From Actinomycetes bacterium (GTDB lineage: Bacteria > Actinomycetota > Actinomycetes > Propionibacteriales > Propionibacteriaceae), in the NCBI GenBank assembly GCA_029778515.1, contig JAKOQD010000086.1, positions 1 to 7,412 of the forward strand: a stretch of DNA of 7,412 nt, in the 5' to 3' direction. Under the pieces are notes generated by a model. That model had not been told where the DNA came from and ran no database searches. It saw only the letters and a list, made by a program, of their open reading frames with translations. Below are positions 489 through 7,096 of the stretch, piece by piece; the first letter of the stretch is position 1, and every line of letters starts with the position of its first letter. A program made the translations under genes and the position numbers.

Positions 489-1376
489 TTACTCCCCGGT
501 CGCGATCGGACGCTCCGGGTCGGCCGACCATCCCGACCAGGACGGCGGGTATAGCGCCGCCTCGATGCCAAGAGCGGCCAACGCCAGCATCGTCTGGGCT
601 GCGGAGACTCCGGAACCGCAATAGACGGCGATTCGGTTGCCAGTTGGTAGATCCCGGCCTCCGCCGGGATGACGGAGGGTGGGTTCAGACCCGTCGACGG
701 GCTCAGGGTGGGTTAGCTTTCGTAGTTCATCGTCGGACGGCAACAGTCCATTGGCGTCCCAGAGCAGGCCCACGGGACGATTGATCGCACCAGGGATGTG
801 ACCGGGTTTCGGGTCGATCGGCTCCACCTCGCCGCGGAACCGCTCGGGAGCGCGGACGTCGATCAGCACGCCGTCGAAAGCGGCCACCTCATCCGCGGTC
901 AGCGTGGGCAGGTGCCCAACGGTCAGCCGCAGTTGGGTGGGTTCCACCGCAGGCGCCGCGCCGCTGACCAACTCGCCCCCGGCGGCCGTCCAGGCCTTCA
1001 CGCCGCCGTCGAGCACCCGCACCGACAAACCAGCCCAGCGCAGCACCCACCACGCGCGACCGGCGGCAAACGATCCGGGCTCGTCGTAGACCACGACCGG
1101 CAGCTCCGGCTCGATCCCGAGTGCCCCCAACCCGGCCGCCAGCTGATCCGCGTCCGGCAAGGGATGTCGGCCGAGCAGCGGGTCGGTGAGCGGTCCGGTC
1201 AGCACAGCCTCCAGGTCGAGGAACCGGGCACCGGGCAGGTGTCCGTCCAGGAAGCGCTGGTAGCCCGCGTCGTGGGGCTCGCCCAAACGCCACCGCACGT
1301 CCAGCAACTGAGCGCCGGCACGCATCGCGTCCGGGAGTTCGCTGATGCTGACCAGAACCTCGCTACGAGTGGACAC
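489..1376 (-). CDS. sseA: Two-domain sulfurtransferase (rhodanese family, 3-mercaptopyruvate type)
   Basis: A 295-residue tandem rhodanese protein that moves a sulfane sulfur from 3-mercaptopyruvate or thiosulfate to an acceptor in the cytoplasm. The inactive N-terminal domain spans about residues 8-140 (LLDVRW, DGHLPGA, VVVYDEP, VRVLDGGVKAW). The catalytic domain spans about 157-295 (LIDVRAPERFRGE, GHIPGAINRP, VYCGSGVSA). The catalytic cysteine is C253; the loop CGSGV is closer to mercaptopyruvate sulfurtransferases than to the CRKGV loop of classical rhodaneses. The GTG start at 1376 lies 9 bases after the bkdC stop and is weakly supported by AGG. Oddity: residues 222-247, just before the active-site strand, are translated from dispersed repeat DNA and have a composition unlike the rest (THPEPVDG, RHPGGGRD). 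They replace the short loop expected there, so activity may be altered, though the frame and all key motifs are intact. Thiosulfate specificity cannot be excluded. Confidence 0.9.
   Translation of the reverse strand: MSTRSEVLVSISELPDAMRAGAQLLDVRWRLGEPHDAGYQRFLDGHLPGARFLDLEAVLTGPLTDPLLGRHPLPDADQLAAGLGALGIEPELPVVVYDEPGSFAAGRAWWVLRWAGLSVRVLDGGVKAWTAAGGELVSGAAPAVEPTQLRLTVGHLPTLTADEVAAFDGVLIDVRAPERFRGEVEPIDPKPGHIPGAINRPVGLLWDANGLLPSDDELRKLTHPEPVDGSEPTLRHPGGGRDLPTGNRIAVYCGSGVSAAQTMLALAALGIEAALYPPSWSGWSADPERPIATGE
492..497 (-). promoter_or_regulatory. Ribosome binding site of alr
   Basis: GGGGAG on the minus strand, 6 bases before the ATG at 485. It overlaps the final codons of the preceding sulfurtransferase gene, implying translation of alr from the same message. 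It fixes the alr start. Confidence 0.7.
649..673. repeat. Dispersed palindromic repeat, copy 1 (inside sulfurtransferase gene)
   Basis: Perfect 8-bp arms ATCCCGGC (651-658) and GCCGGGAT (663-670) around a CTCC loop, followed by GAC. It differs at one base from copies 2 and 3. It lies wholly within coding sequence and is read on the minus strand as RHPGGGRD. Its structure resembles the short dispersed palindromes (dRS3-like) that yield VIPAQAGIS-type peptides in many bacterial proteins. Confidence 0.85.
676..714. repeat. Second repeat module: 12-bp palindrome between 10-bp direct repeats
   Basis: The direct repeat AGGGTGGGTT at 676-685 and again at 705-714 encloses 19 bases that contain the perfect palindrome CCCGTCGACGGG (690-701). 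The module begins 2 bases after copy 1 of the dispersed palindrome and is also inside the sulfurtransferase gene, translated as THPEPVDGSEPTLR. It resembles another widespread bacterial dispersed repeat whose usual form reads like CCTGAGCCTGTCGAAGG. Confidence 0.7.
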
Positions 1377-1385
1377 GCCTGAACT

Positions 1386-2885
1386 CTAGAACAACAGCGA
1401 CAGCCCGGGCTCGGCCATGATCGTGGCGACGTCGGCCAGGAACTTCGAGGCGGCCTCGCCGTCCACCAGTCGATGGTCGAAAGTGAGCGAAACCATGCAG
1501 ACCGAGCGCGGCACGATCCGCTCCTCGTCGCCCGTGCCGACCACCCACGGCTTTCGCCGCACTGTGCCCAGGCACATGATCGCGGCCTCGCCCTCGTTGA
1601 GGATCGGCGTACCGCCGTCCACCCCGAAGACACCGACGTTCGTGATCGTGAACGTGCCGGACGCGAGGTCGCCGGGCTGGACGCGTCCCTCCTTGGCCAC
1701 CGCGACCATCTGATTCAACGCCTGCGCAAGCTCGAGCAGGTTCATCCGGTCAGCGCCCTTGATGTTCGGCACCACCAGACCGCGCGGAGTCGCGGCAGCG
1801 ATGCCGAGGTTGACCGCGCCGTGCAGCACGATCTCATCGGTCGCCTCGTCGTAGCCGGAGTTGATGGACGGGTTGCGCGCGATCGCCATGCAGGCCGCCT
1901 TCGCGAACACCAGGAGCGGTGAAACCCGTAGTCCGGTGAACTCGCGGCGTGACTTCAGGGTCTCCAGCAGTTCCATCGTGCCGGTCACGTCGGCCTCGAC
2001 CATCGCGGTCGCTTGCGGCACCTTGAGCGACTCGGTCATCGTGCGGAACATCTGGCGCTGGACGCCGCGCAGCGGCACCCGACGATCGGCGGACGGTCCG
2101 CCGGCCGCAGCCACCACGTCCTCAGCCGTGATCGTGCCACCCGGACCGGTGCCCTCAATGCCGTTCAGGTCGATACCCAGGTCGCGCGCGATCCGGCGCA
2201 CCGGCGGCTTGGCGCGCGGCGGGCCGTCCGGTGGGGTCGCGGCCGGCGGACGTCCTGGCGGCGGCAGGTGCGCCCCGGACGGCTGCGCGCTCACCCGGCT
2301 GGTCGGCGTGACTTCGTCCACGCGGCGCGAAACCGGGTTCGCAGTGTCGTACGACTCTTGCACCTGGTCGGTCTCCGGCACGGCGACCACGCCCGGCCCC
2401 TTGCGCGGACGGCGGGCGACCGCTCCCGGCTTGACCCCGTAGCCGACCAGCATAGCGCCGGACTGGGCGGGTGGTTCGGTGGGCTTATCGGTGGCAGCAA
2501 CCGGCACTTCGCCGAGTTCGTCCTGGATGTTGCCGGTGACCGCGGCGGTTTCGGTGGTTGGCGTGGCTTCGGAGATCCCGGCCTGCGCCGGGATGACGTT
2601 GGGCTGGGACGCCGGGATGACGGTGGGCTGGGACGATTCCTGAGCCTCGCCGGCATCGCCAATGCGGATGATCGGCGTCCCCACCTCGACGGTGTCGCCC
2701 TCGGCGACCAGGATCGCCGACACCACGCCCGCGTGCGGCGAAGGCAGTTCGACCAGCGATTTGGCGGTCTCGATCTCCAGCAGGATGTCGTTCACGGCCA
2801 CCGTGTCGCCGACCGCGACCTTCCAGGACACGATCTCAGCCTCGAGCAGGCCCTCACCGGGGTCGGGCAGTTTGAACTCGCGCAT
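1386..2885 (-). CDS. bkdC: Dihydrolipoyl acyltransferase E2 of branched-chain 2-oxo acid dehydrogenase
   Basis: The core of the complex: it carries the acyl group from E1 on a lipoyl arm and transfers it to CoA. In 499 residues, a single lipoyl domain (1-76) has the lipoylated lysine K42 in EIETAKSLVE. A long Pro/Ala/Thr-rich linker (about 77-225) contains the LVGYG patch near 145-149. The peripheral subunit-binding domain is at about 224-260 (RRIARDLGIDL, GTGPGG), and the catalytic domain at 268-499 ends with the active-site motif FDHRLVDG (H471, D475). The ATG at 2885 has AAGGAAG upstream, overlapping the bkdB stop 10 bases away; in-frame codons further upstream belong to bkdB territory. 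Residues 87-105 come from inserted repeat DNA (VIPASQPN, VIPAQAGIS) placed where the linker can absorb it. Branched-chain rather than pyruvate specificity is inferred from the heteromeric E1 next door, since actinobacterial pyruvate dehydrogenase normally uses the homodimeric AceE. Confidence 0.93.
   Translation of the reverse strand: MREFKLPDPGEGLLEAEIVSWKVAVGDTVAVNDILLEIETAKSLVELPSPHAGVVSAILVAEGDTVEVGTPIIRIGDAGEAQESSQPTVIPASQPNVIPAQAGISEATPTTETAAVTGNIQDELGEVPVAATDKPTEPPAQSGAMLVGYGVKPGAVARRPRKGPGVVAVPETDQVQESYDTANPVSRRVDEVTPTSRVSAQPSGAHLPPPGRPPAATPPDGPPRAKPPVRRIARDLGIDLNGIEGTGPGGTITAEDVVAAAGGPSADRRVPLRGVQRQMFRTMTESLKVPQATAMVEADVTGTMELLETLKSRREFTGLRVSPLLVFAKAACMAIARNPSINSGYDEATDEIVLHGAVNLGIAAATPRGLVVPNIKGADRMNLLELAQALNQMVAVAKEGRVQPGDLASGTFTITNVGVFGVDGGTPILNEGEAAIMCLGTVRRKPWVVGTGDEERIVPRSVCMVSLTFDHRLVDGEAASKFLADVATIMAEPGLSLLF
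2572..2597. repeat. Dispersed palindromic repeat, copy 2 (inside bkdC linker)
   Basis: Core ATCCCGGC (2575-2582), loop CTGC, GCCGGGAT (2587-2594). The 26 bases are identical to copy 3. On the minus strand it is translated as VIPAQAGIS, in a different frame from copy 1. It sits in the disordered linker of E2. Confidence 0.88.
2587..2634. repeat. 24-bp tandem duplication growing from repeat copy 2
   Basis: Units 2587-2610 and 2611-2634 differ at a single base (T/G at unit position 14). The first unit begins with the right arm of the palindrome. Because 24 is a multiple of three the bkdC frame is kept, giving the peptide repeat SQPTVIPA/SQPNVIPA. Near-identity suggests a recent duplication. Confidence 0.9.
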
Positions 2886-2895
2886 CACAGCTTCC

Positions 2896-3876
2896 TTAGT
2901 AGGCCAGCGAACGGTCGACCGCGTCCAACACCCGATCGAGATCGGGCAGGTAGCCATCTTCGACCCGGCTGGGCGGATAGGGAAGGTCATAGCCGGTCAC
3001 ACGTAGCACGGGAGCCTGCAGATCGTAGAAGCATTCGGCCTGAATCCGGGCGGCCAGTTCGGCGCCGAGCCCCAACGTGCCGACGGCTTCGTGGACGACG
3101 ATCGCGCGTCCCGTCCGCCTTACCGAGTCGAAGATCGTCGCATCGTCCAGCGGCGAGAGCGAGCGCAGGTCCACCACTTCAAGGTTGCGGCCCTCATCGG
3201 CAGCGGCGACGGCGGCCTCCACACAGGTGCGCACCATCGGGCCGTAGCTGAGCAGGGTCGCGTCCGCGCCCGGCTTGACCACTCGCGCCTGGTAGAGCGA
3301 CGGCGGGGCTGATTCGCCGTCCGGGTCGACCTCGCCCTTCTCGTGGTAGCGGCGCTTGGGCTCGAAGAAGATCACCGGATCATCGGCTGCGATCGCCTGC
3401 TGGATCATCCAGTAGGCGTCGGACGGGTTGGACGGCGTCACGACCTTAAGCCCGGGTGTGTGCGCGAAGTAGGCCTCCGGCGATTCGGAGTGGTGCTCGA
3501 TCGCGCCGATGCCACCGCCATACGGAATCCGGACGACCATCGGGACGCTCAGGCGTCCGTGCGAGCGGAAGCGCAGCCGCGACACCTGCGAGACAATCTG
3601 GTCGAACGCCGGATAGACGAAGCCGTCGAACTGGATCTCCACCACCGGCCGGTAGCCGCGCAGCGCCATCCCGACCGCAGTGCCGACGATGCCCGACTCG
3701 GCCAGCGGGGAGTCGACCACGCGGTCGCGTCCGAACTCGGCCTGGAGGCCCTCGGTCACCCGGAAGACGCCGCCGAGCTTGCCGATGTCCTCACCGGCCA
3801 GAAGCACCTTCGGATCGGCGCCCAGCGCGCGGCGCAGGCCCGCGTTCAGCGCCTTGGCCATGGTCATGTTGGTCAT
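2896..3876 (-). CDS. bkdB: Branched-chain 2-oxo acid dehydrogenase E1 component, beta subunit
   Basis: Beta chain of the alpha2-beta2 thiamine-diphosphate-dependent E1 decarboxylase. Its 326 residues are the normal family length. LLAGEDIGKLGGVFRVTEGL starts the pyrimidine-binding domain; DSPLAESGIVG holds the conserved glutamate E60 that activates the cofactor; GIGAIEHHSESPEAYFAHTPG (H128, H129) is the active-site loop facing the alpha subunit. The C-terminal transketolase-like domain begins near residue 197, with VVDLRSLSPLDD and VVHEAVGTLGLGAE. The ATG at 3876 overlaps the bkdA stop by 4 bases (ATGA), which suggests translational coupling and balanced subunit production. The frame stays open far upstream, but there it reads through bkdA out of frame, so the overlap ATG is the sensible start; a second ATG three codons on is possible. 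No lesion is seen. Confidence 0.95.
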   Translation of the reverse strand: MTNMTMAKALNAGLRRALGADPKVLLAGEDIGKLGGVFRVTEGLQAEFGRDRVVDSPLAESGIVGTAVGMALRGYRPVVEIQFDGFVYPAFDQIVSQVSRLRFRSHGRLSVPMVVRIPYGGGIGAIEHHSESPEAYFAHTPGLKVVTPSNPSDAYWMIQQAIAADDPVIFFEPKRRYHEKGEVDPDGESAPPSLYQARVVKPGADATLLSYGPMVRTCVEAAVAAADEGRNLEVVDLRSLSPLDDATIFDSVRRTGRAIVVHEAVGTLGLGAELAARIQAECFYDLQAPVLRVTGYDLPYPPSRVEDGYLPDLDRVLDAVDRSLAY

Positions 3877-5096
3877 CGCACGCCCCCTGAACCCACGCCA
3901 TCGGAGAACGACTCCTCGTACGCGAGGTACTCCTCGCGCTGTCGGTGCAGCAGGTCGGGGGTGTCGGCGTAGACGCGTCCCCACATCTCGGCTAGCTGGG
4001 GTTCGGGCAACGACACGCAGCCGGCGCGCAGCCGCTCGGCGAGGGCGTCCGATTCCGCGGCGAGCGCGTCCAGCCAAGCCTGGTCGATCGCCCCGGACGC
4101 GAGCAGGTAGGCCTGCACGCGCGCGAGCGGGTCCTTGGCGCGCCACTCGTCGAGCTCGGCGGCGAGCCGGTACTTGGTGGGGTCGTCGGACGTGGTGTGC
4201 GCGCCCATGCGATACGTGTAGGCCTCGATCAGCGTCGGGCCCTCGCCTCGACGGGCGCGGTCCAAGGCCCAGTCGGTGACCGCCTTGACTGCGAGGACAT
4301 CGTTGCCGTCCACCCGGACGCCGGGGAACCCGAAGCCGGAAGCTCGCCGGTACAGCGGGATCTTCGACTGCAGCTTGATCGGCTCCGAGATCGCCCACTG
4401 GTTGTTCTGGCAGAAGAAGACCACCGGCGCGGCATACGAGGCGGCGAAGATGAAGGCCTCGTTCACGTCGCCCTGGCTGGTGGCACCGTCGCCGAAGTAG
4501 ACCACTGCAGCGCCGTCGTCGGCCGGGTCTTGGTTGCCCACGAGCCCGTCCCGCTGCATGGCCATGGCCATGCCGACGGCGTGCAGGGTCTGGGTGCCGA
4601 TCACGAACGAGTAGAGGTGAAAGCGCTTGTCAGCCGAATCCCAATCGACCATCGCCGTGCCTCGGAAGGTGCCGAGCAGTTCGAGCGGATCGATGCCGAC
4701 GCACCAGGCCACGCCATGCTCGCGGTAGGAAGGAAGGATCTCGTCGGGTGCCCTGGTCGCGCGGGCCGAGCCGACCTGGGCCGCCTCCTGACCAAGCATC
4801 GGCGGCCAGAGCCCGAGCTCGCCCTTGCGCTGCAGCGCGGTGGCCTCGGTGTCGATCCGCCTGGCCAGCACCATGTCGCGCAGATAGCCAGCGACCTCTT
4901 CATCGGTGCCGGTGAATGCGAAGTCGGGGTGCTCGACGCGGCGTCCGGACGGATCGAGCAGCTGGATCGGCACGTCGCCGCCAACCATTGCGGGGTTGAG
5001 CCCGTCCGGGCCGAGGCTGGTGGCGGGATCTCCGCTGCTCGCCTCGGCCCGACGGTTTGGGCTCGCGGAATGGGTGTTGCTCGCGGGCTCGGTCAA
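3873..5096 (-). CDS. bkdA: Branched-chain 2-oxo acid dehydrogenase E1 component, alpha subunit
   Basis: Alpha chain of E1; with BkdB it decarboxylates the 2-oxo acids of valine, leucine and isoleucine and passes the acyl group to the lipoyl arm of BkdC. It has 407 residues. The thiamine-diphosphate motif starts at GDG (202-204) in VVYFGDGATSQGDVNEAF and ends at QNNQWAIS (N231, N232). The loop YRMGAHTTSDDPTKYR contains the active-site histidine H300 and the serine region phosphorylated in mitochondrial homologues. PMLGQEAAQVG and LPSYREHGVA are further E1 alpha signatures. The TTG start at 5096 is chosen for its AGGAG box 6 bases upstream and the promoter just beyond. The first 36 residues are polar and look disordered, so an ATG at 4988 (MVGGDVP) is the alternative but lacks a clear ribosome site. 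First gene of the operon. Pyruvate as substrate cannot be excluded from sequence alone. Confidence 0.95.
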   Translation of the reverse strand: MTEPASNTHSASPNRRAEASSGDPATSLGPDGLNPAMVGGDVPIQLLDPSGRRVEHPDFAFTGTDEEVAGYLRDMVLARRIDTEATALQRKGELGLWPPMLGQEAAQVGSARATRAPDEILPSYREHGVAWCVGIDPLELLGTFRGTAMVDWDSADKRFHLYSFVIGTQTLHAVGMAMAMQRDGLVGNQDPADDGAAVVYFGDGATSQGDVNEAFIFAASYAAPVVFFCQNNQWAISEPIKLQSKIPLYRRASGFGFPGVRVDGNDVLAVKAVTDWALDRARRGEGPTLIEAYTYRMGAHTTSDDPTKYRLAAELDEWRAKDPLARVQAYLLASGAIDQAWLDALAAESDALAERLRAGCVSLPEPQLAEMWGRVYADTPDLLHRQREEYLAYEESFSDGVGSGGVR

Positions 5097-5100
5097 CGGG

Positions 5101-5107
5101 CTCTCCT
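5101..5107 (-). promoter_or_regulatory. Ribosome binding site of bkdA (supports TTG start)
   Basis: AGGAGAG on the minus strand; AGGAG (5107-5103) is 6 bases from the TTG at 5096. This strong site is the main reason to accept the rare TTG codon over the downstream ATG. Confidence 0.7.
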
Positions 5108-5133
5108 GGTGGCTGACGCTCCTTGGTTCATCT

Positions 5134-5163
5134 AACTTACGGTTACGTAACCATAGGTGTCAA
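5134..5163 (-). promoter_or_regulatory. Candidate housekeeping promoter of the bkd operon
   Basis: On the minus strand a perfect TTGACA (5163-5158) is followed after 18 bases by TAAGTT (5139-5134), a weak -10 box keeping T1, A2 and T6 of the consensus. The predicted start of transcription near 5127 would give a leader of roughly 30 bases that includes the bkdA ribosome site. Position, spacing and the perfect -35 support it; the -10 box is the weak point. Confidence 0.55.
5137..5152. promoter_or_regulatory. Candidate operator: two nested palindromes in the bkd promoter spacer
   Basis: GGTTACGTAACC (5141-5152) is a perfect 12-bp palindrome. It overlaps a second dyad, TTACG-N4-CGTAA (5137-5150), with centres 3 bp apart. 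Both lie between or on the -35 and -10 boxes of the bkdA promoter, where a bound dimer (for example a TetR-family repressor, which often binds such sites) would block RNA polymerase. No regulator gene is in the window, so the protein is unknown. Confidence 0.55.
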
Positions 5164-5307
5164 TGCTTGAGCCAGCCTGCCAGCCGGTACGCGTACACCC
5201 ACACACAGGCCCGCACGCCAGAATCGCGTCCGGTGACTGGCTTCGCCCAATGTCACAGATCCAGAGCGCAGATCAGCTCGCCAGGCGCGTGGCTAAGGTA
5301 ATGCCGT

Positions 5308-5336
5308 CCACTACGACACCCTGTTTCACGTAGTGG
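5308..5336. promoter_or_regulatory. Inverted repeat upstream of the PPOX-like gene (operator or hairpin)
   Basis: CCACTACG (5308-5315) and CGTAGTGG (5329-5336) are perfect 8-bp arms around 13 bases; arm centres are 21 bp apart, two helical turns. It ends 35 bases before the GTG at 5372. It could be an operator for a dimeric regulator or a leader hairpin. I could not find a convincing plus-strand -35/-10 pair near it. Confidence 0.4.
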
Positions 5337-5371
5337 GACCGCTGTCGCCGAAATGGTGGGAGATTAGCCTC

Positions 5372-5818
5372 GTGAGCAGCGGACGCGAGTCCCCTGCATC
5401 CCAGCAAGCGATTGACAAGGAGACGTGGATGATCGTTCGGCCACCAGCTGGTTCGGTCTGCATGCTCACCACGCGTGCCGTCGACGGCCGGCTGCGGTCC
5501 CGTCCGGTCACCGTTTTCCACGGCGCCGACGATGCTGAGGTGACCATCTTCACCGCAGCCTCCGCCCGCAAAGTGACCGACATCTCGTCCGATCCTGCAG
5601 TCACTCTGGCTGGTCCGGTGGCGGACGGCTGGTGGTCGGCCGAGGGTTCGGCGAGCATCGACCAGGACGCGACCAGTGAGCTCGCCGCCGCCGGAATCCC
5701 GACCGCGCCCTATTCCTGCGTGCTCCGCGTCCGCCTGCAACTGGTGCGTCAGTGGACGATGCATTCGTCCCAGCCCTGGGACAACACGGTCGAGGAGTGG
5801 GAGCTCACCAGCCGCTGA
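5372..5818 (+). CDS. Pyridoxamine 5'-phosphate oxidase-like flavin-binding protein (general stress protein 26 type)
   Basis: A 148-residue split-barrel protein. Residues about 18-125 follow the pattern of the small PPOX-like/stress-protein-26 group: VCMLTTRAVDGRLRSRPVTVF, then VTIFTAASARKVTDISSDPAVTLAG, then WWSAEGSASI. The RSRPV strand and the T-K-V-x-D-I stretch are where relatives bind the flavin phosphate. Such proteins bind FMN, FAD or F420; the substrate is unknown, and a true vitamin B6 role is unlikely because the C-terminal substrate-binding region of PdxH is missing. The GTG at 5372 is preferred because GGGAG lies 9 bases upstream; a longer in-frame GTG at 5333 overlaps the inverted repeat and lacks a ribosome site. 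It is divergent from bkdA and convergent with the membrane mannosyltransferase gene, so it is probably a single-gene unit. Confidence 0.8.
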   Translation: MSSGRESPASQQAIDKETWMIVRPPAGSVCMLTTRAVDGRLRSRPVTVFHGADDAEVTIFTAASARKVTDISSDPAVTLAGPVADGWWSAEGSASIDQDATSELAAAGIPTAPYSCVLRVRLQLVRQWTMHSSQPWDNTVEEWELTSR

Positions 5819-5851
5819 CCGCTGCTTCACGTTTGCTACCGAAACCGTGAG

Positions 5852-5876
5852 CGGACGCGGCCGGAACGGCCATCCG
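5852..5876. terminator. Possible bidirectional terminator hairpin between convergent genes
   Basis: CGGA (5852-5855) pairs with TCCG (5873-5876) and GGCC (5859-5862) with GGCC (5868-5871), leaving a GGAAC loop and an internal loop of three bases against one. It sits in the 60-base gap between two converging stop codons, the expected place. There is no T-tract, as is common in high-GC actinobacteria. Confidence 0.35.
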
Positions 5877-5878
5877 AA

Positions 5879-6970
5879 CTAGGCAGCCCAGCGGCCGGTG
5901 AAGAACAGCCAGGCCCAGATGGCCTGGGTCACCAGGGCGACGGCCACCAGCAGGCCGATCAGAATCGCGCGCCAGGTGGGTAGCTTGCGTCGGCTGCCGC
6001 CGAGTTCGCCGAGCCACGTCCACAGCGGGAACCACAGCAGCACAGCGCGGTTCACGCTCATGAACCAGTACGAAACCGAGAACGCGGCCACCTGCAGGCC
6101 CACCCAGGTCGCCTCGCCCCAGCGTCGGCGCACCAGGCTGCCCAGGGTCACCACAACCCCGACCGCCATGCTCACCACCTCGGCGCGGAACACCCAGGCC
6201 CATTCCGGATGGTCGGCGTAAGCACCCGGCGCGAAGGCCTCGAAGGTGTGCCGCAGTGAGTCCCACGGCCAGGTGAAGCCGCGCGACCAGCCTGCCGCCT
6301 GGGCTTCGTACCAGGCTGCCCAGTTGCCGGTCATCGAATAGAGGTAGGCGAGGTACGCCACCACCACGCAGAGCGGGAACAGCAGCCACAGCAACCGTTT
6401 GCCCTTGTCCCGTGACGATCCGGCGGACGTGATCGCCAGCACCGCCAGCGCCACGATCAGAAACACCCCAGAGACGCGGACGGCCGCCGCCACCGCAGCG
6501 AGCACCGCTGCCGCACCCCACTGCTTGGCGGTGGCGCGCTCCCAAGCCCAAAACGCCGCCGCGCAGAACACCGACTCGGTGTACGGCACCATCGTGAACA
6601 CCGCGGTCGGGGCCAGCAACCAGGCGATCGCCGCCGGGGCTCCGGCCATGCGGTACAGCGCGGCCGCAGCGAAACCGGACGCGAGCAGCGCCAGCAGAGT
6701 GCCGGCGATCATTATCGGCAGCCCGGTCGTCGAGGTCAGCCGCAGCAGCAGCGGCCAACCGGGGAAGAAGGCGATGTTGTGGCGGGCTACGTAGCCGTCC
6801 GCGGCGATGGCGAGGAAGTGCTGGACGTCCCAGTTGCCCACCAGGTCGGAGAACTTCCGGCCCTCGGTCAGCATCAGCCAGACGCCGACCAGGGCCATCA
6901 GCAGCCGGGTGGCGAACCAGGTCTGCACGACCAGGCGCGCGTCGGCTGAGCGGTGGACGCTAGTTGTCAT
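5879..6970 (-). CDS. PIG-V-like polytopic mannosyltransferase (GT-C fold)
   Basis: A 363-residue integral membrane protein with about 9-10 hydrophobic helices. It matches bacterial relatives of PIG-V, the GPI mannosyltransferase II of eukaryotes. NWDVQHFLAIAADGY carries the acidic residue D48 of the first outer loop, the probable catalytic site of GT-C enzymes. It is followed by NIAFFPGWPLLLR, then APTAVFTMVPYTESVFCAAAFWAWERA and AAVRVSGVFLI, all in the family order. Bacterial members are thought to use polyprenyl-phosphate mannose to mannosylate lipids or glycans outside the membrane; the acceptor here is unknown. ATG at 6970 is chosen; a GTG at 7006 would add 12 residues (HARLPAPRQDA) and begin next to repeat DNA, and neither has a strong ribosome site. 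The neighbour upstream on the same strand may be another membrane glycosyltransferase. Confidence 0.82.
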   Translation of the reverse strand: MTTSVHRSADARLVVQTWFATRLLMALVGVWLMLTEGRKFSDLVGNWDVQHFLAIAADGYVARHNIAFFPGWPLLLRLTSTTGLPIMIAGTLLALLASGFAAAALYRMAGAPAAIAWLLAPTAVFTMVPYTESVFCAAAFWAWERATAKQWGAAAVLAAVAAAVRVSGVFLIVALAVLAITSAGSSRDKGKRLLWLLFPLCVVVAYLAYLYSMTGNWAAWYEAQAAGWSRGFTWPWDSLRHTFEAFAPGAYADHPEWAWVFRAEVVSMAVGVVVTLGSLVRRRWGEATWVGLQVAAFSVSYWFMSVNRAVLLWFPLWTWLGELGGSRRKLPTWRAILIGLLVAVALVTQAIWAWLFFTGRWAA

Positions 6971-7009
6971 GGCGTCTTGTCGTGGGGCTGGCAGCCGCGC
7001 GTGCACCTA

Positions 7010-7035
7010 GAGATCCCGGCCTGCGCCGGGATGAC
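7010..7035. repeat. Dispersed palindromic repeat, copy 3 (intergenic)
   Basis: Core ATCCCGGC (7013-7020), loop CTGC, GCCGGGAT (7025-7032). All 26 bases match copy 2. It lies between the two membrane-protein genes, just upstream of the possible GTG start of the mannosyltransferase gene, and could form a hairpin in the transcript. Confidence 0.88.
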
Positions 7036-7096
7036 AATGCGCCGGTTGGGGGCACCGTTCGCCGGGATGAAAATGCGCCGATCGGGGACACCGTTC
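7025..7096. repeat. 36-bp tandem duplication growing from repeat copy 3
   Basis: Units 7025-7060 and 7061-7096 match at 32 of 36 bases; a third begins as ACCGGG at 7097, overlapping the end of the neighbouring gene. As in the bkdC copy, each unit begins with the right arm of the palindrome (GCCGGGATGA). The stop codon of the gene at 7095 lies at the edge of the array. The array fills most of the 124-base gap between genes. Confidence 0.88.

Follow-up and report, generated by a model that had tools for sequence, protein, structure and literature searches.

CGTC-1-type REPs of a Propionibacteriaceae bacterium, probably non-autonomous and copied in trans

Repetitive extragenic palindromic (REP) sequences bearing a GTAG tag are thought to be moved by REP-associated tyrosine transposases (RAYTs). 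CGTC-1 REPs, described by Di Nocera, De Gregorio and Rocco in 2013 (PMC3733652), include dRS3 of Neisseria and RPE-6 of Rickettsia conorii. Our comparison rests on the main text of that survey. There, CGTC repeats are reported from Proteobacteria, Chlorobi, Bacteroidetes, Spirochaetes and Thermotogae, the word 'Actinobacteria' is absent, and the mover of CGTC REPs is left open. The tail of a CGTC-1 REP is described as short, unpaired and most often CCA, and inverted (HH) dimers as predominant, direct pairs being negligible. The same text describes TIRYT elements, in which a Y1 gene is bordered by terminal repeats of the GGGGWSAS type. The literature searched contained no later paper with CGTC REPs as its subject, and the available text of PMC6006769 mentions CGTC a single time, in citing the 2013 survey. 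Here we analyse a stretch of 7,412 nucleotides (nt), the whole of which we call the window, from contig JAKOQD010000086.1 of a Propionibacteriaceae bacterium (assembly GCA_029778515.1). It carries three copies of a 27-nt palindromic unit, which are members of the CGTC-1-type REP family, a known class, in a phylum that the main text of the survey does not list. We consider it likely that this family is non-autonomous and is copied in trans by an enzyme encoded elsewhere.

The palindrome ATCCCGGC-N4-GCCGGGAT has three mismatch-free matches in the window (651-670, 2575-2594 and 7013-7032), whereas none of 200 dinucleotide shuffles reached three, even with up to 3 mismatches allowed (shuffle mean 0.14). 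An earlier note on this DNA had described three perfect 8+4+8 palindromes, all in the same orientation, two of them inside genes and none near a transposase gene. All of this held: the tag end is on the minus strand in all three copies, copy 1 lies in a sulfurtransferase gene and copy 2 in a 2-oxoacid dehydrogenase E2 gene, and a Pfam scan found no transposase among the eight predicted genes of the window. Unit edges were defined from relatives, by aligning copies of genome G012, and give a tag YGTC, the hairpin and a tail CTM, 27 nt in all (Table 1); the intervals first proposed, 649-673, 2572-2597 and 7010-7035, fall one base short of these units. Copies 2 and 3 indeed have the same sequence over 26 nt, and copy 1 differs from copy 2 at one loop base and at the last tail base. 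All three are single units, not pairs. Each is predicted to fold, as single-stranded DNA, into an 8-bp hairpin of -9.7 kcal/mol (z -3.6 to -4.2), a stability equalled by 2 of 200 shuffles for copy 1 and by 0 of 200 for copies 2 and 3; Rfam at gathering thresholds returned no match. Twenty-seven nucleotides make nine codons, so that a reading frame is kept. On the tag-first strand, none of the three window copies has a stop in any frame; on the opposite strand each has at least one. Within the E2 protein, copy 2 falls in the stretch separating the lipoyl and E3-binding domains.

This layout is that of the published CGTC-1 family, so the kinship with dRS3 proposed in the earlier note is borne out as far as the main text of the survey goes. 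The terminal tag is CGTC in copies 1 and 2 and TGTC in copy 3, the stem has 8 bp with AT first, the loop has 4 nt, and the tail is short and unpaired. The likeness extends to the occurrence of both singles and dimers, to a location mostly in convergent and unidirectional gaps, to the lack of a linked transposase, and to some members lying in frame in genes, with a DnaE-family polymerase among the genes in both cases. The present family differs in its host phylum, which is outside the five named, and in its tail, for which CTC, CTT or CC is seen in place of the CCA that prevails in the survey (3 nt in the window, CTC or CTA). It also differs in that direct pairs outnumber inverted ones in G012.

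The bounds of the unit are sharp in this relative. The G012 sample consisted of 800 kb in 40 tiles (L152-L191), picked where copies had been listed, and 103 copies align to CGTC-AT-C/T-CCGGC-GNAC-GCCGG-G/A-AT-CTC. The final base of the tail carries 1.65 bits of information and the one after it 0.04; at the other edge the values are 1.23 bits for the base that opens the tag and 0.51 just upstream, where only a weak preference for C or T persists. The tag bases C, G, T and C are found in 89, 102, 98 and 103 of the 103 copies, the loops are mostly GAAC, GGAC or GCAC, and the tail is CTC. Other lineages have their own versions. In G139 (34 copies fetched), the loop is GAAA in 30, the tag TGTC in 33 and the tail CTTT in 21; in G185, CC mostly follows GAT among the 100 places listed of 165; and 17 exact copies of G002 have the loops GAAG (12), GGAG (2) and GCAG (1), the last two being those of the window.

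Copy counts refer to the genomes of relatives. Six genomes of the genus of G004 (Micropruina in the record name) contain 0, 37, 75, 88, 189 and 336 exact palindromes, and the reversed pattern has no match in any of the six. Over 197 Propionibacteriaceae genomes, the exact palindrome occurs in 17, and at least 11 copies are present in 11, hereafter called repeat-rich; the reversed pattern gave a single match, in one genome. The richest genome is G014, with 336 copies, and G139 has 316. Amplification of the unit has thus reached hundreds of copies in certain relatives, in others the unit is not found, and the repeat family expected by the earlier note does exist beyond the window. A looser pattern, searched in a class-wide sample, matched in 53 of 345 Actinomycetes genomes, with 3 matches or fewer in all but two. 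These two, G243 and G383, have 20 and 11 matches, and the places shown there have a different stem, ATCCCCGC; neither is among the 57 Y1-bearing genomes of the Actinomycetes sample. In these samples, amplification is therefore limited to a few lineages. Nine contigs of a viral collection (L242-L250) also carry the exact 27-nt unit, with a GNAN loop and, in three of them, a close inverted pair; they are possibly host DNA.

The insertion sites were then compared with relatives. The insert of the sulfurtransferase gene (sseA) is missing from all six genus relatives; in two of them (L115 and L118) a unit lies nearby, outside sseA, in the stretch fetched. At the protein level, two conserved motifs of the sulfurtransferase were both located in 107 homologues among the 120 listed of 7896 matches. 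The distance between the motifs is 41 residues in 75 of the 107, 60 in the window, 60 likewise in P0001, a near-identical record, and 93 in P0002. As 31 of the 107, besides P0001, deviate from 41, this loop is variable in general. In P0002, at 80% identity, this loop contains RHPGESRD and RHPGVGRD, as judged from the protein sequence, and P0003 (70%) has no extra residues there. The same repeat at the same sites in distant relatives, which the earlier note would have taken as an argument against a recently active family, was not seen for sseA in the relatives examined. More broadly, the loop before the YCGSG motif varies in length among relatives (P0002, P0012, P0044; up to 93 residues), and it seems to be an insertion hot spot. 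For E2, VIPAxAG is present in 3 of the 120 listed homologues, namely the window's own record, P0223 (73% identity, with 56% of the query covered) and P0224 (62% identity, with all of it covered), the last two having VIPANAG at about the same place. No paper on VIPAQAGIS, the peptide encoded by copy 2, was found in the literature searched, and nothing apparently related under palindromic repeats of Micropruina. Taken together, the sulfurtransferase and E2 comparisons suggest that tolerant stretches are hit repeatedly and independently.

Placement relative to genes was analysed in G012, with genes predicted by a simple home-made caller based on codon usage; 102 units were classified. Convergent gaps are enriched (35 units versus 21.1 expected from intergenic length, p=0.001), divergent gaps are depleted (6 versus 23.3, p=6×10−6), and unidirectional gaps are close to expectation (52 versus 48.6). 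Nine of the 102 units fall inside predicted genes. The coding strand is the tag-first strand in 43 of 61 cases (p=0.002), and no clear strand bias exists along G012. In-frame units were found in HrpA and near the end of HisD; a further one, read from the opposite strand, sits in a variable region of a DnaE-family polymerase and is absent from relatives at about 81-82% identity. Two units ahead of RuvX may lie upstream of where this gene really begins. HrpA, HisD and RuvX score above the cut-offs of their NCBIfam models; the polymerase does so with the superfamily model TIGR00594 only, and may thus be of the replicative or the error-prone type. Both DUF222-HNH genes in the 800 kb (L157:9924-11267 and L182:7938-9281) lie within 160 bp of a unit, against a background in which 121 of the 720 predicted genes have a unit no more than 300 bp away, two copies being too few to conclude. 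Also in these tiles, a second palindromic family, GGTCGAG-N2-4-GTCGAGAC, has 59 copies in 800 kb and occurs within 150 bp of 16 of the 103 units, versus 7.6% of 20000 random intergenic bases; STSSTS stretches adjoining the HrpA unit may be its translation.

The pairing of units was compared between G012 and G139. In G012, 45 of the 103 units are isolated, with no other unit inside 250 bp, and the 33 pairs closer than this comprise 22 direct and 11 inverted ones. In four of the direct pairs the 30-nt flanks are at least 87% alike (up to 100%) in an ungapped comparison, the other 18 being less so, which suggests tandem duplication. Spread by host replication and repair, that is, template switching at hairpins, slippage and recombination between copies, would account for such pairs. 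It would also fit the tandem duplications of the window, which begin in the palindrome, and the lack of a candidate transposase between close units: units 0.3-2.6 kb apart enclose 16 predicted genes (12 in G012, 4 in G139 and none in the G185 stretches), and no transposase was found among the 10 of them scanned with Pfam. Against such processes stand the 103 copies with sharp 27-nt edges and almost unconserved flanks, the genome of the same genus with 0 copies, and the order seen in G139, where 13 close pairs comprise 4 direct and 9 inverted ones with the tags outside, and 6 of these 9 have their starts 52-54 nt apart, in a REPIN-like arrangement. We thus regard host processes without any dedicated enzyme as an unlikely source of the copies. 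In being short tagged hairpins with a fairly regular spacing of inverted pairs in G139, the units resemble GTAG REPs and REPINs with their RAYT; they differ by the tag, CGTC instead of GTAG, and by flanking none of the Y1 genes examined in the relatives.

A Y1 transposase (HUH, IS200/IS605-like) of the genome might nevertheless move the unit in trans without being flanked by it. Y1_Tnp genes are present in 19 of the 197 family genomes, and they are over-represented among repeat-rich ones (7 of 11 versus 12 of 186 others, p=6×10−6), with no significant excess of IS110 or DDE_Tnp_1. Outside the Micropruina-type genus, the figures are 5 of 6 rich genomes versus 12 of 185 others (p=2×10−5). Both figures are uncorrected for kinship. 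On the other side, four of the 11 rich genomes (G002, G013, G014 and G015) gave no Y1, and the richest of all is among these four, although at least some of them are drafts and an incomplete assembly could conceal a Y1 gene. Conversely, the 12 non-rich genomes with Y1 yielded no match to the looser tagged pattern; the exact palindrome is absent from 10 of them and occurs once each in G134 and G148. In a tree of 29 Y1 proteins, many branches of which are poorly supported, those of rich genomes are scattered.

The surroundings of the Y1 genes point the same way. No unit was found in 30 Y1 loci (flanks of at most 1.5 kb, shorter in some where the contig stops), nor beside a 31st of the 33 matches; in larger stretches, the unit nearest to a Y1 gene was 2.1 and 3.3 kb away in G139 and 4.8 kb away in G012. 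The absence of a linked transposase, as stated in the main text of the survey, thus holds for the Y1 loci seen here. Instead, GGGGACNG-type motifs, frequently as tandem repeats, flank the Y1 gene left and right in 25 of the 27 loci examined among the 33 matches (L185, L232, L229 and L230 are examples); this motif is short and was scored without a chance control, and the match extends further in many loci. At one exceptional locus, in G139, the gene is surrounded by inverted repeats of another kind. GGGGACGGTTC itself has 94 matches in the 800 kb of G012. Judging from these flanks, the Y1 genes look similar to TIRYT elements and seem to have their own repeats. GGGGAC-type flanks similar to the TIRYT repeats described in the main text of the survey border Y1 genes in several of these genomes, and such flanking repeats are unlike the 27-nt unit. 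A dedicated Y1 mover, promising from co-occurrence, was therefore rejected on account of the tree, the flanks and the looser repeat search (40 chosen genomes of the 197), and we hold it improbable that the Y1 enzyme of the genome moves the unit. An IS110/Piv-type recombinase moving or targeting the unit is more improbable still. IS110 does occur in 7 of the 11 rich genomes, but also in 83 of the 186 others (p=0.18, no significant excess), and it was not found in G002, G013, G015 and G139, in spite of the 316 copies of the latter. DDE_Tnp_1, in 5 of 11 rich genomes versus 94 of 186 others (p=0.74), showed no significant excess either, and both were dismissed as movers. The earlier interpretation is therefore partly supported: it was right in kind, and the two movers it had suggested, a solitary IS200/IS605-like transposase and an IS110/Piv-like one, are not supported.

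In our view, an unlinked enzyme is the most likely mover. More tentatively, CGTC REPs might be moved in trans by an enzyme class that has escaped recognition, different from the Y1/RAYT, IS110 and DDE_Tnp_1 types, each Propionibacteriaceae lineage having a matched enzyme and hairpin version; we see this as a possibility on the weaker side of even. The course of events that we favour is the following. The unit would be a non-autonomous mobile element, probably copied in the form of a single-stranded hairpin, with an enzyme from another locus acting on it in trans. Copies would persist at sites where the cost is small, downstream of genes or in flexible protein regions. Survival inside genes may be helped by the length of exactly nine codons and by the stop-free tag-first strand of the three window copies. 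The tandem duplications that start from the second arm would be secondary, probably due to slippage at the hairpin.

Several points weigh against copying in trans by an unlinked enzyme. No empty site was found at base resolution, the edges not being alignable because the inserts of DnaE and E2 lie in variable stretches, so that both a clean insertion of 27 nt and a target duplication stay putative. The counts come from relatives, and recent spread in the window's own lineage is inferred from these and from how nearly identical its three copies are. The arrangement of pairs, mostly direct in G012 and mostly inverted in G139, means that the moving unit may differ between the two. Finally, the placement statistics come from tiles chosen for their listed copies, a fifth of the contig, and from a simple gene caller, and some of the nine units scored as inside genes are in short predicted genes or ahead of a likely later start.

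As for the surroundings of the copies, seven of the eight predicted genes of the window matched a Pfam family and the eighth had no match. The seven are an alanine racemase (cut), the rhodanese sulfurtransferase, E2, an E1 beta-type protein (transketolase domains), E1 alpha, a pyridoxamine-oxidase-like protein and a PIG-V-like mannosyltransferase; E2, E1 beta-type and E1 alpha are parts of a 2-oxoacid dehydrogenase. Of named organisms, Micropruina, Propionicimonas and Propionicicella come closest, and the named matches of the sulfurtransferase and E2 are from Propionicimonas, so that the host is taken to belong to the Propionibacteriaceae. Next to copy 1, two AGGGTGGGTT repeats 29 nt apart, noted without a chance control, may stem from either a target duplication or a tandem duplication. 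The same segment (676-714) encodes HPEPVDG, which resembles what we take to be a widespread 'PEPVEG' repeat. A longer second palindrome at this place was ruled out: a consensus proposed for it had no match, and palindromy is limited to the 12-nt core.

Table 1. Positions of the repeat units, host genes and adjoining repeats in the window
Feature	Position	Strand	Description
Copy 1, 27-nt CGTC-1-type REP	648..674	-	CGTC-ATCCCGGC-GGAG-GCCGGGAT-CTA; in frame inside sulfurtransferase gene, encodes RHPGGGRDL
Copy 2, 27-nt CGTC-1-type REP	2572..2598	-	CGTC-ATCCCGGC-GCAG-GCCGGGAT-CTC; in frame inside E2 gene, encodes VIPAQAGIS
Copy 3, 27-nt CGTC-1-type REP	7010..7036	-	TGTC-ATCCCGGC-GCAG-GCCGGGAT-CTC; TGTC tag variant; between two predicted genes
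Sulfurtransferase gene (Rhodanese, PF00581)	489..1376	-	Contains copy 1 a little ahead of YCGSG motif
2-oxoacid dehydrogenase E2 gene (PF00364, PF02817, PF00198)	1386..2885	-	Contains copy 2
24-nt-period tandem duplication	2586..2633	-	Starts in second arm of copy 2
36-nt-period tandem duplication	7024..7095	-	Starts in second arm of copy 3
10-nt direct repeat AGGGTGGGTT flanking 12-nt palindrome CCCGTCGACGGG	676-685 + 705-714; palindrome 690-701	.	Adjoins copy 1

With the present family, the CGTC class extends to a phylum unnamed in the main text of the 2013 survey. The units illustrate how nine foreign codons, those of a hairpin, can land in frame inside enzymes. A genus spanning 0 to 336 copies, with lineage-specific versions of the unit, offers a natural comparison for finding the mover; if an unrecognised class of enzyme is indeed at work, the contrast between 0 and 336 copies would make it findable by comparing gene content.

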